This document shows positions 1 to 42,298 of a stretch of 64,000 nt of DNA, piece by piece (positions within the stretch are counted from its first letter, which is position 1; each line of letters starts with the position of its first letter). Location: contig JAGOMP010000006.1 of NCBI GenBank assembly GCA_017993505.1, positions 1 to 64,000 of the forward strand, given 5' to 3'. The notes under the pieces are model-generated. The model saw only the letters and a program-made list of their open reading frames with translations, did no database searches and was not told where the DNA came from. Position numbers and translations under genes: made by a program. The stretch is from Planctomycetota bacterium (GTDB lineage Bacteria > Planctomycetota > Uabimicrobiia > Uabimicrobiales > JABWCH01).

Positions 1-665
1 ACTAACTTACTCCACTACACAATTTTCATTCCCAGATCAAATTTACTCCCCAGATCATCTTTCCTCCCCATAGCAACTTTTCCTCCCCAGAGCAACTTTC
101 CTCCCCAGAGCAACATTTGCCTCCCCAGAGCAACTGACACCTCCCCAGAGCAACTTTCCTCCCCAGAGCAACATTTGCTTCCCCAGAGCAACTTTCCTCC
201 CCAGAGCAACTTTTCCTCCCCAGAGCAACTTTCCTCCCCAGAGCAACTTTTCCTCCCCAGAGCAACTTTCCTCCCCAGAGCAACATTTGCTTCCCCAGAG
301 CAACATTTGCCTCCCCAGAGCAACTGACACCTCCCCAGAGCAACTTTCCTCCCCAGAGCAACATTTGCCTCTCCAGAGCAACATTTGCCTCCCCAGAGCA
401 ACTGACACCTCCCCAGAGCAGACTAACTGACTAACTCCCCAGAGCAAAATTGCCTCCCCAGAGCAACATTTGCCTCCCCAGAGCAAGTCCCCAGAGCAAA
501 TTAACTCCCCAGAGCAACTTTCCTCCCCAGAGCAACATTTGCCTCCCCAGAGCAACTTTCCTCCCCAGAGCAACATTTGCCTCCCCAGAGCAAGTCCCCA
601 GAGCAAGTCCCCAAAGCAAATCCCCTGAGCAACATTTGCCTCCTCTGGCAACTCCCCAGAGCAAG
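1..665. repeat. Array of about 35 short degenerate repeats, core CTCCCCAGAGCAA
   Basis: The core CTCCCCAGAGCAA (revcomp TTGCTCTGGGGAG) recurs about 35 times, always in the same orientation. Copies are separated by a few types of 3-7 nt linker (CTTTC, CTTTTC, CATTTGC, CTGACAC, GTC), giving periods of about 14-20 bp. Copies at both ends are degenerate (positions 30-75 and 605-650), while the centre is almost invariant, as expected if copies are gained inside and decay at the edges. A short non-repeat stretch with stops in all plus frames lies at 420-435. Stop-free frames exist on both strands but follow from composition; none has a ribosome binding site and frames overlap freely. The array may continue left of the window. 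The same repeat family occurs inside a protein gene near 40.0-40.4 kb. Confidence 0.95.
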
Positions 666-751: not shown

Positions 752-2425
752 TTATTGAATGAGAATTAAAGATGGTTGGTAAATTTCTGGGGCTTGATAA
801 CCTAGAAGGTTAATGAATGTAGATGCAATGTTGGCAATTCCTGGATTTTGGATGTCAGAATTTATTTTGTATTCGTTGTTGTATTGAAAATCAAGGATAA
901 AAAAGGGAACTGGGTTGAGTGTGTGGCTTGTTTTTGGTTTTCCTTTTTTATCGATTTTTTCTTCTACATTACCATGATCTGCAGTGATGATTACAATGCC
1001 TTCTTGTTTTTTCACTTCTTCTACGATTGTTGGAAGTAGATTATCAATGGTTTCCATGGCTTTGATGCATGCTTGGATGTTGCCTGTATGTCCTACCATA
1101 TCTCCATTGGCGTAGTTGACGCGTAGGAATTTATATTTTTTGCTTTGTATTGCTTGTAAAAGTTTATCTGTGACTTCTTGTGCACGCATTTCTGGATGAG
1201 ATTCAATCATTTCATTTGGTTCTGATGCAACTTCTTCATATTTTTCAAATTTTTCATCAATGTAGCCTGATTTATTTCCATTCCAAAAATATGTGACATG
1301 TCCATATTTATGAGTTTCTGCAATAGCGTAAGATGGTATTTCTGTAGCAGTTAAGTATTGAGCTGTTACGTGATGAATTTCTGGAGGTCGAACGAGTGTC
1401 ATGGGTGGCATATGAACTTCTGTATCGTATTCTAACATGCCAGCATATTGTACATTAGGAAAGTCTACTCTATCAAAGCCTGTAAAGTCTTTTTTTACAA
1501 AAGCTTCGGAAATTTCAATGGCTCGGTCACCTCGAAAGTTAAAGTTGATGACTGTATCACCATCTTGCATTTTTCCTATGGGCTTTTTATTTTCATCAAC
1601 AATGACAAATGTTGGATTGAATTGATCTTGCTTTTCTGGATATACTTTACGAGCTGTTTGAATGGCTTCTGTAGCTGTTGTATAGTATCCTGTGTAATCT
1701 GGATGGATGTCTTCAGGAGCAACAATTCCTCGAACATGGGCATTCCAACCACGTTGGACTATGTTCCAATCAGAATTGTATCGATCCATAGTAACGTGCA
1801 TTCTTCCACCACCAGAAGCAATGGCTATGTCTACGTCACTATTTTGTTCACGTATTTGATCAAATTTTTCTTCTAGTTGTTGTATGTAGATTAATCCAGA
1901 ATCTGGTGCAACATCTCGACCATCTAATAGAGTATGCACGCGAATTTTTTTTGCCCCTGCTTGGACTGTGTAGTCTAGTAAAGAAAAAAGTTGTTGGATG
2001 TGGGAATGAACGTTTCCATCGGAAAGTAAGCCGAGAAAGTGAATGGTATGATTTTGTTTTGCTGGTTCTACGATGAGTTTTTTCCAAGTATCTGATTCTT
2101 TGATACGTCCTGATGCAATGGATTCGTTGACAAGCATAGCACCTTGGTGGTAAATTTGACCAGAACCAATTGCATTGTGTCCTACTTCGCTATTTCCCAT
2201 GTCATCATCTGTAGGAAGTCCAACTGCAGTTCCATGAGCTTGGAGTTGTGTGTATAAGTTTTTTTCTTTTGTTTGTTGAATCCAATTGTTTAAATTTGTT
2301 GTTTTGGCTCTTGTAAATGCATTTCCTTCATAATCTTTACCAATTCCAACACCGTCTAGAATAATTAGTACAAGAGGTCCCTTTCGACCTGAAAAATTAG
2401 GATGGGGCTGTAGTTTGTAATTCAT
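752..2425 (-). CDS. gpmI: 2,3-bisphosphoglycerate-independent phosphoglycerate mutase
   Basis: Interconverts 3-phosphoglycerate and 2-phosphoglycerate in cytoplasmic glycolysis and gluconeogenesis, using two metal ions and a phosphoserine intermediate. The 557-aa protein has the usual family arrangement: metal-binding LDGVG at about residues 23-27, the catalytic serine in DMGNSEVGHN (Ser79), the HTLLDGRD segment in the inserted phosphotransferase domain, and the C-terminal metal motif TADHGN. Length is slightly above the common 510-550 aa. The start at 2425 gives MNYKLQPHPNF and is preceded by a weak purine-rich site. The gene stands alone, with a terminator downstream at 684-719. The family assignment is secure. 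Confidence 0.97.
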   Translation of the reverse strand: MNYKLQPHPNFSGRKGPLVLIILDGVGIGKDYEGNAFTRAKTTNLNNWIQQTKEKNLYTQLQAHGTAVGLPTDDDMGNSEVGHNAIGSGQIYHQGAMLVNESIASGRIKESDTWKKLIVEPAKQNHTIHFLGLLSDGNVHSHIQQLFSLLDYTVQAGAKKIRVHTLLDGRDVAPDSGLIYIQQLEEKFDQIREQNSDVDIAIASGGGRMHVTMDRYNSDWNIVQRGWNAHVRGIVAPEDIHPDYTGYYTTATEAIQTARKVYPEKQDQFNPTFVIVDENKKPIGKMQDGDTVINFNFRGDRAIEISEAFVKKDFTGFDRVDFPNVQYAGMLEYDTEVHMPPMTLVRPPEIHHVTAQYLTATEIPSYAIAETHKYGHVTYFWNGNKSGYIDEKFEKYEEVASEPNEMIESHPEMRAQEVTDKLLQAIQSKKYKFLRVNYANGDMVGHTGNIQACIKAMETIDNLLPTIVEEVKKQEGIVIITADHGNVEEKIDKKGKPKTSHTLNPVPFFILDFQYNNEYKINSDIQNPGIANIASTFINLLGYQAPEIYQPSLILIQ

Positions 2426-15332: not shown

Positions 15333-15880
15333 ATTTTTCTCGCTTTATAAAAAAGTAAGTTGTTTTATTTTTATTATAAATCATATTTTATTTTAGTAAG
15401 TTATTTTATGATCATTATAAATCATATTTTATTTTAGTAAATTATTTTATGATCATTGTAATTCATATTTTATTTTAGTAAATTTGTGTTATGATTATTG
15501 TAAATCATGTTTTATTTTTATCTACTTAAATTTCATTTTTTTTCAAGGATGATTTTTTTATAAAATATAGGATTGTTTTTTTAATTTTGTTATCGTATAG
15601 TATACCAAATACAATTCTATGTCTATTTGAATATTTTCATTGAAAATGTTTATAAAAAACATATAATATATATTTTCATAAAACAAAACACATATTATAT
15701 ATATTTTCATAATATTCTTTTGACTCATTGCTTTAAAACATATATATTATACACAGATATATTATATATATTTTCATAATATTCTTTTTAACTTATTGCT
15801 GTGCGAAGAAAGAAAAAAATTCTTTGATATTATAGTTCTTTTTAAAAAAATCAAAGTTTTATACAACAAAAGAGAAAAAT
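15333..15880. repeat. AT-rich spacer with two sets of tandem repeats
   Basis: From about 15360 to 15515 a unit of about 41 bp containing TCATATTTTATTTTAGTAA is repeated four times (TCAT at 15381, 15422, 15463, 15505), with later copies diverging. From about 15660 to 15805 a second, AT-only unit containing TATATATTTTCATAATATTC is repeated (offset 67 bp for the two best copies, with a partial third). No gene is visible. The promoter of the downstream sensor-regulator must lie here but cannot be picked out of the AT-rich sequence. Confidence 0.7.
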
Positions 15881-38582: not shown

Positions 38583-38674
38583 TTCAAAATTTTATATTTT
38601 CAAATTTATATGTATTTTTTTATAAATTTGATTATTATCTATGTTGCCTTCAAGCAGGAACTATATAAATGATT
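38556..38674 (+). CDS. Possible small hydrophobic peptide gene (GTG start)
   Basis: On the plus strand AAGGAGG (38556-38562) is followed after about 8 nt by GTG (38571). The frame runs 33 codons to TGA (38670-38672) and gives a hydrophobic peptide with a charged tail (MYFFINLIIIYVAF then KQELYK). Such short peptides are typical of type I toxins. The second repeat copy keeps the last 20 codons from ATG but has a 2-bp insertion upstream and no Shine-Dalgarno site. The same DNA could instead be a minus-strand RNA, so the call is weak. Confidence 0.3.
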
Positions 38675-38865
38675 GTTTTTTCCGTGACTTACGAAGGCTT
38701 TAAATCTTTTATGCATAAATAAAATTTAAAAATTTTATATATTTTCAAATTTATATGTATTTTTTTATAAATTTGATTATTATCTATGTTGCCTTCAAGC
38801 AGGAACTATATAAATGATTGTTTTTTCCATGACTTACGAAGGCTTTGCATCTTTTATGCATAAAT
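38588..38865. repeat. Tandem direct repeat, two copies of about 133-135 bp
   Basis: Copy 1 (about 38588-38720) and copy 2 (about 38733-38865), offset 145 bp, differ by a 2-bp indel and three substitutions. Each unit has two inverted repeats: a 10-bp CAAATTTATA/TATAAATTTG hairpin and a longer stem GCCTTC/GAAGGC with an inner GGAA/TTCC. The high identity indicates a recent duplication or strong selection. Confidence 0.9.
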
Positions 38866-39233: not shown

Positions 39234-39710
39234 CTATTTTTTTTCATTGTCAAATACAGGTACTTCTTTTTCATCTGTTACACTTCCATCATTCCAAAGC
39301 ACATGAAACTGTCCAAAATGACGTTTTTCAATATATTCAAAATCAATGTCTGTAAGAGGGATCTTAACACAAGGACTTTCCCAAACAATTGGTTTTTTTA
39401 TCTTTTGATACATTCTTTGAGGCGTTTGTGTGTGTATTTGATAAGAATATTGATGATCCTGCCAAGGAATACTAGGACAACTTGCGTATTTTGGATCTAT
39501 AAAATCTTTCATAAAAAGTTGAAAATTCGTCTCATTCAAAGGGCTAACTGATGATTTTGGAAAAAACATTTGCAATTCTACATAATAATATCGCAAATGA
39601 ACAGTACAAATATGATTCAAATAACATTGAACCAACATTTCTTTTACACCCAAAAAAAGAAAAAAAACACTGCTTAATAAAAGGGAAATAATACAAATTT
39701 TATATTTCAT
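39234..39710 (-). CDS. Membrane-anchored protein with H-X9-DG motif
   Basis: A 158-aa protein with an N-terminal TM segment (KICIISLLLSSVFFLFLG) and an extracytoplasmic domain. Near the end, His followed by exactly nine residues and Asp-Gly (HFGQFHVLWNDGSV) matches the H-X9-DG motif of the DUF1559 pseudopilin-like proteins that abound in planctomycetes. The canonical prepilin leader (G/FTLIE) is absent, so it may no longer be processed. The start at 39710 has a better ribosome-site distance than an ATG three codons upstream. It overlaps the HExxH gene by 11 bp. Confidence 0.65.
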   Translation of the reverse strand: MKYKICIISLLLSSVFFLFLGVKEMLVQCYLNHICTVHLRYYYVELQMFFPKSSVSPLNETNFQLFMKDFIDPKYASCPSIPWQDHQYSYQIHTQTPQRMYQKIKKPIVWESPCVKIPLTDIDFEYIEKRHFGQFHVLWNDGSVTDEKEVPVFDNEKK

Positions 39711-41118
39711 ATCGTTCATTTTCCATCAATACATTTGAAAAAAACAAAAGTATTCTTTCATTGGCCAATACATCTAAAGGAATTGTTGCCAATGTCAAAA
39801 GAAATATATAATGATTTTCATTAGTATAATATTTATTGGTAAGTATTTCAAGATTCTCTATAGCTTTTTGAAATAGACTATAGAGTGCGTAACGCACTTC
39901 TTGAGAAAATTGCTTTGTATAATAAAAAAATCGAGAATCATTGTGCAGGCAAATTTGCTCTAGGGAAAAACTATTCTGTGAAGAAACTGCTTTGGGGTTA
40001 ATATTGCTCTGGGGAAAATATTGCTCTGGGGAAAAACTACTCTGGGGAAAATATTGCTCTGGGCAAACTTGCTCTGGGGAAAAACTACTCTGGGGAAAAT
40101 ATTGCTCTGGGCAAACTTGCTCTGGGGAAAAACTACTCTGGGGAAAATGTTGCTCTGGGCAAACTTGCTCTGGGCAGACTTGCTCTGGGCAGACTTGCTC
40201 TGGGGAAAAACTACTCTGGGGAAAATGTTGCTCTGGGCAGACTTGCTCTGGGGAAAAACTACTCTGGGGAAAATGTTGCTCTGGGCAGACTTGCTCTGGG
40301 GAAAAACTACTCTGGGGAAAATGTTGCTCTGGGCAAACTTGCTCTGGGGAAAAACTACTCTGGGGCCAATGTTGCTCTGGGCAAACTTGCTCTGGGGAAC
40401 ATGAACATGTGAAAAAAAATTGTTTTTGCATTTGGGCAGAGAAAAAACCGAATGTTTTTAATATAGCAGACCAGTCGCAGAGCAATTCTATGTATAGGTG
40501 CGTTATAGATGTTTTATAGAGTCGATAAAATAAATAATGTGTGAATTCATGTTCTAAGCGGATATTATAGGATTTTTGTAACCATTGAGAAATAGGAAGT
40601 GATACATTACTATAAAAAGTTTGGTGGATTACTATAAATCTATCGATGAGTTTCCATGGTTCTAAATATAAAATTTTTTGTTTTTCTAAATTCCAAGGAT
40701 TTTTAGTATTGTTTTTGAAATATTTTTCACGAGATAAATTTTTATATTTTGGAATCATAAAGGCATTTATGTTGTTTCCAATAGAAATATTAGGAATGCA
40801 TTGAGAAATAATATGAATAAAATCTGTCCTATTTTTTGTAGCAATTACTGGCAAAGAACCAGCTAGGTGTTGTTGTATATGAATTTGTATATCGTTGAAA
40901 TCTTTTACTTTAATTCCTAAAAAAAAAGAAATTTTTTCTGGAGGATTATTTTTTAAAAATTCTTCCCAATAGGGAACGTGTTTTTCTGGTGTTTGTTGTT
41001 GGGGAAAAGTATATTTATGAACAGATTGGTTCATGTATAAGAGTAGATCTTCTGCTATATTTTTAGAAATCTGTAGATCTTGTAGATGTTTTAATCTTTG
41101 TTCCCATGGGAATAACAT
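39700..41118 (-). CDS. HExxH (gluzincin-like) putative metallopeptidase with inserted short-repeat region
   Basis: A 472-aa protein. The N-terminal half has no recognised family. His190-Glu-x-x-His194 (LEHEFTHYLFYRL) followed by Glu211 and Asp215 (ELLCDWSA) fits a gluzincin zinc site, so a peptidase is likely. Residues about 239-391 are a repeat of S/C-P-E-Q and F-P-Q-S blocks (CPEQHFPQSSFSPEQV, 16 residues). These are encoded by about 28 copies of the short DNA repeat that also makes the array at 1-665. An 81-aa tail follows. The start at 41118 is chosen over the ATG at 41220, which would overlap the upstream gene; TTGGAAAC precedes it. There is no signal peptide, so it is cytoplasmic unless exported otherwise. 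Confidence 0.75.
   Translation of the reverse strand: MLFPWEQRLKHLQDLQISKNIAEDLLLYMNQSVHKYTFPQQQTPEKHVPYWEEFLKNNPPEKISFFLGIKVKDFNDIQIHIQQHLAGSLPVIATKNRTDFIHIISQCIPNISIGNNINAFMIPKYKNLSREKYFKNNTKNPWNLEKQKILYLEPWKLIDRFIVIHQTFYSNVSLPISQWLQKSYNIRLEHEFTHYLFYRLYKTSITHLYIELLCDWSAILKTFGFFSAQMQKQFFFTCSCSPEQVCPEQHWPQSSFSPEQVCPEQHFPQSSFSPEQVCPEQHFPQSSFSPEQVCPEQHFPQSSFSPEQVCPEQVCPEQVCPEQHFPQSSFSPEQVCPEQYFPQSSFSPEQVCPEQYFPQSSFSPEQYFPQSNINPKAVSSQNSFSLEQICLHNDSRFFYYTKQFSQEVRYALYSLFQKAIENLEILTNKYYTNENHYIFLLTLATIPLDVLANERILLFFSNVLMENERYEI
39946..40404. repeat. Short-repeat array (CCCAGAGCAA family) inside a protein gene
   Basis: About 28 copies of TTGCTCTGGGGA/TTGCTCTGGGCA (plus strand), so CCCAGAGCAA on the coding strand. 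Sub-units of 17, 16 and 15 bp form a 48-bp higher-order repeat that keeps the reading frame. Degenerate copies lie at the left edge (39956-39995). Core and edge behaviour are the same as in the array at 1-665. Confidence 0.95.
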
Positions 41119-41179
41119 ATTTGTTTCCAAGATAAAAAATGTCGGATACTTACTAAAAACAATGGATATTTTAAAAAAA

Positions 41180-42298
41180 TTATATTTTTTGATATATAAA
41201 ACGCACACCGATAACATCACAACATTCTTTTTGGAAATTATTTTTTAGGAGTACTTTTTGAGAGTAAATATTTTGTTCCTTTGTATAGGCAATGATGGAT
41301 TGAACATTTTTTTGTAGTAAAGCCCATGAAACCAAAGCCTGTACTGCTTCTGTTGCATATCCTTGATGTTGAAATGGTTCATCGATAATATAGCCAATTT
41401 CTACTCGTTGATTATAATCTGGTGGCCCCATAAAGGCAATACAACCTATTTCTTGCCCTGTAGATAATAAAGAAATTTTCCAATTGCTGTTCCATTGAAT
41501 TGCTCCATGGAACATGTTTTGAAGCATGTCTTTGTATATACTTTGTAATTCTTCATCTTCTGTTTTTTCTATCAATTGTTTCATTTCTTTTTTATTTCTT
41601 GGACGTATCTTTAATCGTTTTGTATATAAAATATTTTTCATAAAAATTTTTTTAATGCAAAGTAAAATTAGGAGAAAAAAAATGCACAATATAAGGTATA
41701 ACATAATTACAGTACTAGATTTTGGGAAAGTAAAAGGTGGGAAAAAAGGGGTAAGCCAGTGAGTAGAATAGCAAAAATGACCTCTCAAGTGATCGTAGTA
41801 AGGAATTGTTTGTGTTATATTGGTAATAGGATTAAAGTATAAAAAAAGATTGCAGAAAAAAGTATTTGTGTATTGTAAAATAAAAACTTGTGCTACAGAA
41901 ATAAAAAAATATAAAGACAAAATAATATAGAAATTCCATTTTAATGTTTGCAATATTGCTACTAAGAAAACTAGATGTAAAAAATAAAGGATAGAAAATG
42001 AAATATACCAATGCCAATGTGGACGAAATTTTTCTACGATATCTTGACTAATATAGAAAAGAATACAAAAATGAACGATCAAAGCAAATAATCCGAAAAA
42101 AATTGTTTTTTTTATCTTACTGCATGCATGCCATATAATAGATACCCAGATTACATAGATTGTAAATTGTACATATGCACGGTAGTAAAAAATTTGAGAA
42201 CGTTTTGTTTCCATATTTTGATATAAATAAATACTCACAATTCCATAAAGAAGTACAGGAAGAAGATATAAAAAATAGATAAACAATTTTTTTTTCAA
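41180..42298 (-). CDS. Multi-TM membrane protein with C-terminal GNAT acetyltransferase domain
   Basis: The N-terminal 230 residues contain about seven TM segments rich in F, I, L and Y. Residues about 236-372 are a RimJ/RimL-type GNAT domain (LKIRPRNKKEMKQL, IGCIAFMGPPDYNQRVEIGYIIDEPFQHQGYATEAV; the Q-x-x-G-Y-A motif binds acetyl-CoA). The start is probably TTG at 42298 (MKKKLFIYFLYLLP), because GGAG lies 8 nt before it; an earlier TTG at 42313 has no site. It could acylate a membrane or exported amine. The 62-bp gap to the HExxH gene suggests an operon. Confidence 0.75.
   Translation of the reverse strand: MKKKLFIYFLYLLPVLLYGIVSIYLYQNMETKRSQIFYYRAYVQFTIYVIWVSIIWHACSKIKKTIFFGLFALIVHFCILFYISQDIVEKFRPHWHWYISFSILYFLHLVFLVAILQTLKWNFYIILSLYFFISVAQVFILQYTNTFFCNLFLYFNPITNITQTIPYYDHLRGHFCYSTHWLTPFFPPFTFPKSSTVIMLYLILCIFFLLILLCIKKIFMKNILYTKRLKIRPRNKKEMKQLIEKTEDEELQSIYKDMLQNMFHGAIQWNSNWKISLLSTGQEIGCIAFMGPPDYNQRVEIGYIIDEPFQHQGYATEAVQALVSWALLQKNVQSIIAYTKEQNIYSQKVLLKNNFQKECCDVIGVRFIYQKI

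Follow-up and report, generated by a model that had tools for sequence, protein, structure and literature searches.

The window, i.e. the whole 64,000-nucleotide stretch of DNA that was analysed, lies on contig C62 of a fragmented genome assembly (G000; 3.08 Mb, 103 contigs, 86% complete) and carries on its minus strand an uninterrupted ORF of 506 amino acids (39700-41220). The likely start of the gene is the ATG at 41118 (MLFPWEQ...), which is preferred since a start at the GTG would overlap with the neighbouring ORF. Residues 64-268 of the product, which is metallopeptidase-like, match PF22541 (E 5.4e-29, 101.6 bits against a gathering threshold of 27), hence it is a member of the DUF7005 family. 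Upstream of the repeat described below, the protein has an HEFTH sequence (HExxH; residues 224-228, 40537-40551, minus strand), the presumed zinc site. DUF7005 is present in two of the 246 genomes of the phylum, and the orthologue in G010, which is 23% identical, retains H224, E225, T227, H228 and E245, its motif being HESTH. The preliminary description of this locus had proposed a zinc-site domain, which is reasonable in view of this motif, the conservation of E245 in one orthologue and the DUF7005 match.

Between the DUF7005 domain and the C-terminal part of the protein (39703-39945, minus strand), which resumes after the repeat and aligns weakly with the G010 orthologue past the insert, there is an in-frame repeat tract (39946-40404, minus strand; 459 bp). 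Its length of 153 residues (273-425), its roughly 28 units (28.1 according to TRF, at 39951-40399) and the division of the 48-bp higher-order unit, which codes for SPEQVCPEQHFPQSSF, into sub-units of 17+16+15 bp all agree with what had been reported before. The 18 exact cores of the tract (40004-40396) are mostly spaced by 15 and 33 bp (33 being 17+16), consequently 17 of them have a common frame, from which the third, diverged sub-unit, CCCCAGAGTAG, departs. A non-coding array of the same family (31-664, plus strand) is situated at the contig end and adjoins the 3' end of a phosphoglycerate mutase gene (752-2425, minus strand), downstream of that gene. It comprises 33 cores with at most one mismatch, 27 of them exact (86-664), and about 30 units by TRF (31-593). 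Its cores are mostly 18-20 bp apart, as in other intergenic arrays, thus the frame is not kept. The earlier statement that an identical repeat occupies the peptidase gene and the non-coding DNA at 1-665 is borne out by these 45 exact CCCAGAGCAA cores (shuffled windows contain 0.03 on average). The coding tract is also similar to a non-coding array on contig C75 (75% over 350 bp, 79% over 236 bp). Rfam covariance models detected solely tRNAs in the window and none matched the repeat. Two further tandem repeats of the window are outside long ORFs, one with a 41-bp unit in four copies (15354-15518) and one with a 145-bp unit in 1.9 copies (38586-38865, 96% match).

The repeat is a genome-wide family. 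The exact CCCAGAGCAA core occurs 960 times in the whole of G000, compared to three occurrences of the reversed control word, and 473 paired cores were counted in G000 and none in 20 relatives, all from other genera and three of them from the same family. In the sequence stretches surveyed for arrays, which amount to 78% of the genome, 905 exact cores, 136 arrays (at least three cores, with one mismatch allowed), nearly all of a single orientation, and approximately 109 tracts outside genes were found. Arrays contain 883 of the 905 cores (the other 22 being elsewhere), have a GC content of 50% as against 32% for the genome, and the repeat is strongly depleted from genes. Arrays are often found at contig ends, and their positions account for many of the break points of the assembly.

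The core of the repeat is TCCCCAGAGCAA and the consensus is cTCCCCAGAGCAA(A/C); tandem units measure 15-20 bp, with a genome-wide peak of core spacing at 18-20 bp. The consensus includes neither a palindrome nor a GTAG/GGAG head, and the units fold weakly. The core is near-invariant across arrays while the linkers are locus-specific, 13% of linker pairs being identical within arrays vs 0.7% between arrays, which suggests that arrays grow by local duplication. The constancy of the core throughout the genome may be due either to its recognition by something or to recent spread. Gene ends beside arrays are 3' ends in 99 cases and 5' ends in 50 (p 7e-5), divergent promoter regions are rare array sites, and the arrays have no gene-strand bias. 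A second family, ACGCATTTCTACGTAATTCTACG, alternates with CCCAGAGCAA arrays in shared intergenic tracts (C44:30970-31760, C94:1900-2500 and C17:12480-13170), and 8-mers such as AAATGCGT are enriched about 10-25 fold close to arrays. Duplicated genes that combine serine/threonine kinase and FGE-like parts have CCCAGAGCAA arrays between or beside them (C44:22275-30918, C69:654-3764 and C75:19406-24263).

The much stronger conservation of the core compared with the linkers suggests some sequence recognition, and this, together with a slight bias of array orientation relative to GC skew (62 to 40, p 0.046), agrees with the core being a functional DNA motif (for protein binding, nucleoid or replication organisation, or as a recombination hotspot) that is selected as such, the coding copies being tolerated sites. 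However, the replication bias is weak, the relatives from the same family have no paired cores, the cores are clustered in arrays unlike evenly spread uptake or Chi-type sites, and the depletion from genes fits a burden. We therefore regard a selected DNA motif as an unlikely explanation of the family.

Within the 78% of G000 read, at least five long ORFs have arrays inside credible coding sequence, in every case in the sense orientation: the DUF7005 gene of the window, the genes of MetH (C70) and CheA (C82), and those of a kinase-like protein of 1893 amino acids (C36) and a low-complexity protein of 495 amino acids (C41). Across the five genes, 52 of 53 exact cores are read in the CCA-GAG-CAA frame (PEQ), while the three frames are mixed in intergenic arrays; core spacings are multiples of three in 61 of 63 instances in genes vs 368 of 1341 (27%) outside, although the tandem copies of a tract are not independent, so p-values for these spacing counts overstate the evidence. 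In its other sense frames the core would encode Pro-Arg-Ala or Pro-Gln-Ser, and on the opposite strand Leu-Leu-Trp-Gly or Cys-Ser-Gly; PEQ being the most hydrophilic reading, selection would be sufficient to explain the frame bias. The same counts bear on an assembly artefact, by which chimeric joins at repeats would have created the coding copies. Many contigs of this 103-contig assembly do end in arrays, but the five coding tracts are contig-internal and consist of non-identical units, and in-frame spacings of this regularity are not expected of chimeras, which renders an artefact highly improbable.

The codons of the repeat are unusual for this genome, in which GAG accounts for 9.4% of Glu codons. 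At the Glu of the repeat EQ pair, GAG is used at 18 of 18 positions in the DUF7005 gene, 14 of 15 in CheA, 14 of 16 in the kinase-like protein, 6 of 11 in MetH and 24 of 47 in the low-complexity protein. The mixed codons of the latter two may indicate that their repeats are older or partly protein-driven. In the kinase-like protein and CheA, the linkers between cores are protein-like, unlike intergenic linkers, and the repeats of all four genes outside the window may either be long-standing or derive from a single core that expanded within the gene. A tricorn-protease-like ORF (C27:3144-6374, minus strand) has a terminal PEQEPEQEPEQ tail with GAA as its main Glu codon and adjoins a non-coding CCCAGAGCAA array, i.e. 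it has a like peptide encoded by different DNA.

The inserts are missing or much shorter in related proteins; the comparison covered MetH, CheA and DUF7005. In MetH the insert separates the homocysteine-methyltransferase domain (S-methyl_trans, 12-292) from Pterin_bind (438-670); these domains are 1-32 amino acids apart in 11 relatives and 106-140 apart here, the net excess calculated from the coordinates being 105-109 amino acids in all 11 comparisons. In CheA the insert lies ahead of the second Hpt domain (339-430), and three relatives are 111, 126 and 176 amino acids shorter at the inter-Hpt linker. The G010 orthologue of DUF7005 has few residues at the corresponding site and no repeat, the insertion point being approximate because this sole orthologue is 23% identical.

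These comparisons also weigh on selection at the protein level, according to which SPEQ-rich linkers are favoured in several proteins and the likeness of their DNA is a matter of coincidence or codon preference. A single frame common to five genes, the location of the spacers in linkers wherever domains are known, and the PEQ low complexity without the core in the C41 protein and in the C27 tail are in line with such selection. It is at odds with the nearly exclusive use of a rare Glu codon in three tracts, with the third sub-unit of the window gene, which has the same DNA core in another frame, with the identical core in the non-genic tracts, and with the absence of long linkers in relatives; we consider it improbable. 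The preliminary description had named, as the sign of protein-level selection, orthologues in which unrelated DNA codes for the same peptide, and the opposite was found: the relatives of MetH and CheA do not have most of the spacer, the coding DNA equals the non-coding consensus including the rare GAG, and the one peptidase orthologue lacks the repeat. On account of the GAG-rich repeat codons, the shorter MetH of relatives and the interdomain position of the insert, the spacer peptide is most likely a by-product of the spread of DNA, which selection for frame and linker position would have filtered.

Several known systems of short repeats are comparable to this family. DNA uptake sequences (DUS/USS) consist of about 1000 copies of a 10-mer that also occur in genes, in preferred frames. 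The present family is similar to these in copy number, in having a 10-mer and in its preferred frame in genes, but uptake sequences are singly dispersed, whereas 98% of the cores are in arrays here and genes are strongly depleted of them, which sets the family apart. Few bacterial cases of mobile or selfish DNA becoming protein sequence have been described to our knowledge, those of Rickettsia being the best known. The Rickettsia palindromic elements (RPE; Ogata 2000) are selfish repeats, palindromic, about 150 bp long and located in frame in many genes (reviewed in PMC10969869). The likeness lies in a family that populates non-coding DNA (the approximately 109 tracts) and stands in frame in five unrelated genes, and in an interspersed repeat being tolerated as an extra peptide. 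Orthologues without the insert, the mark of an RPE-type insertion, exist for MetH (11), CheA (3) and DUF7005 (1). Unlike in the RPE, the units are 15-20 bp long, non-palindromic, weakly folding, in tandem and able to expand inside genes, no relation to RPE sequences is known, and the family is not an RPE by its unit; the working principle is like that of the RPE, with a different unit. The TAACTGA repeats of Beggiatoaceae are likewise high-copy, short, direct, arranged in tandem sets and taxonomically patchy, but they are mostly placed just before start codons (PMC4679880), a position that does not fit the 3' preference of the arrays described here. PARCELs, 25-residue amphipathic motifs with dyad symmetry that are associated with mobile elements in some taxa (PMC2996958), resemble the present case in that tandem-repeat coding tracts have spread between genes; they are described as coding elements rather than as members of a far larger pool of non-coding repeats, and the family does not fit among them.

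REP/BIME sequences are palindromic, have a GTAG-type head and stand in inverted orientation around a Y1 (PF01797) gene (PMC2817692, PMC3116915), inverted REPs being described as constant neighbours of RAYT genes on both sides (PMC2817692). G000 shares with these systems the hundreds of short intergenic repeats and a Y1 transposase flanked by copies in six of seven genes, but it has tandem arrays, direct orientation, coding copies and no palindrome. As palindrome and GTAG/GGAG head are absent, the flanks are direct rather than inverted and folding is weak, we did not file the arrays as REPs. The six Y1_Tnp genes (on C13, C90, C60, C54, C46 and C32) are within about 0.3-0.7 kb of arrays, always in the same orientation, and each has an array on one visible flank or more. 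Loci with both flanks visible consist of an array, the 57-bp tandem repeat, a short hairpin, the transposase gene, about 380 bp and a second array, in this order, and the homology between transposase copies ends at the array. The approximately 57-bp repeat upstream of Y1 transposase genes (ACGCATTGAAAACACCTGTCCAATG... in C54) is followed by the hairpin AGAGACTACAC..GTAGTCTCT and is located at C90:14211-14768, C54:3173-3873, C60:1-255, C32:329-769 and C101:17765-18099. A near-identical 126-bp repeat lies at the end of the contig of the window (C62:97252-97377) and in about 20 other places, at contig ends and at some internal sites; read together with its flank, this repeat resembles the zinc-finger region at the C terminus of TnpB-type proteins, and may therefore form an IS605/IS1341 right end.

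The arrangement of the six loci raises the tentative idea that a Y1 (IS200/RAYT-like) transposase is the mover of the family, with the arrays as its terminal or target repeats; units or arrays would be handled as single-stranded DNA and inserted elsewhere, including into genes. This idea overlaps with the general reading proposed below, being a specific form of it and not a competitor. The preference for gene 3' ends is compatible with it, and so is a locus of Bacteroidetes Prado069 (G246), an unrelated genome in which one of the four Y1_Tnp genes stands between two arrays of the same 10-mer. Weighing against the transposase as mover, the transposase copies are related to one another and the six cases hence not independent, the link to a transposase is seen for only about 10 of the 109 tracts, the units are non-palindromic, weakly folding and devoid of the GTAG/GGAG head, with direct flanks, and Prado069 contributes a single locus in which the arrays are opposite in orientation to the transposase gene. 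At this locus (L039), 12-bp arrays of TTGCTCTGGGC(T/C) occupy 719-838, 980-1630 and 1661-1730, and such arrays occur on several further contigs of Prado069. A paired-core scan matched at least 59 stretches of GTDB contigs other than those of the genome of the window, and six of IMG/VR. Mostly these matches, among those listed, are lone tandem pairs in unrelated taxa in which the same family is not evident, with the exception of the Prado069 lead, and L039 alone has a Y1_Tnp gene close by. Paenibacillus foliorum (NZ_WHOD01000121.1, L043 7300-8000) has an 11-bp array, TTGCTCTGGGT, of diverged units that is several hundred bp long and reaches the locus edge. A still bolder proposal, which we find doubtful, is that of a new Y1/HUH single-strand transposase class which would recognise the non-palindromic core TCCCCAGAGCAA, arranged in direct tandem arrays, as its motif, would spread such arrays through a genome and would insert the motif into housekeeping enzymes, where it forms in-frame spacers able to expand, and whose pairing with the motif would recur in the unrelated Bacteroidetes genome.

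We propose, with a probability of roughly 0.8, that an intergenic repeat family spread, entered genes, was retained there through a filter for frame, sense and linker position, and expanded inside the genes. The preliminary description had offered two readings, either that a short sequence had spread into a gene or that it had expanded at both locations; the two seem to hold together, given a family of about 960 cores throughout the genome, at least five genes entered and local growth afterwards. The TCCCCAGAGCAA family, organised in tandem arrays with locus-specific linkers, would have multiplied chiefly in intergenic DNA, and a single unit or a short array would now and then have landed within a gene. 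Such an insertion would survive only if it had the sense orientation and the CCA-GAG-CAA frame and lay in a surface loop or a linker, since the repeat then encodes a hydrophilic Pro-Glu-Gln spacer that is probably disordered. Insertion would come first and expansion second, the later growth taking place gene by gene through tandem duplication of units that are multiples of three (24, 33, 42 and 48 bp) and ending in the spacers of about 100-175 residues of MetH, CheA and DUF7005. Both the act of insertion and the translation of the spacers are deduced from sequence, the spacers are presumably neutral in function, and the Y1/IS200-type transposase flanked by arrays is put forward as their mover as a proposal only.

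What had been recognised at the window locus is extended by the genome-wide scale of the family, by four further genes, by a constant PEQ frame and by the link to a transposase. In one genome, repeat DNA would have turned into protein sequence in at least five genes, including those of the core enzymes MetH and CheA, with the filter (sense orientation, a single frame, linkers) as well as the growth inside genes still legible. The organism may offer a natural test of the birth of disordered linkers from repeat DNA, together with a candidate transposase.
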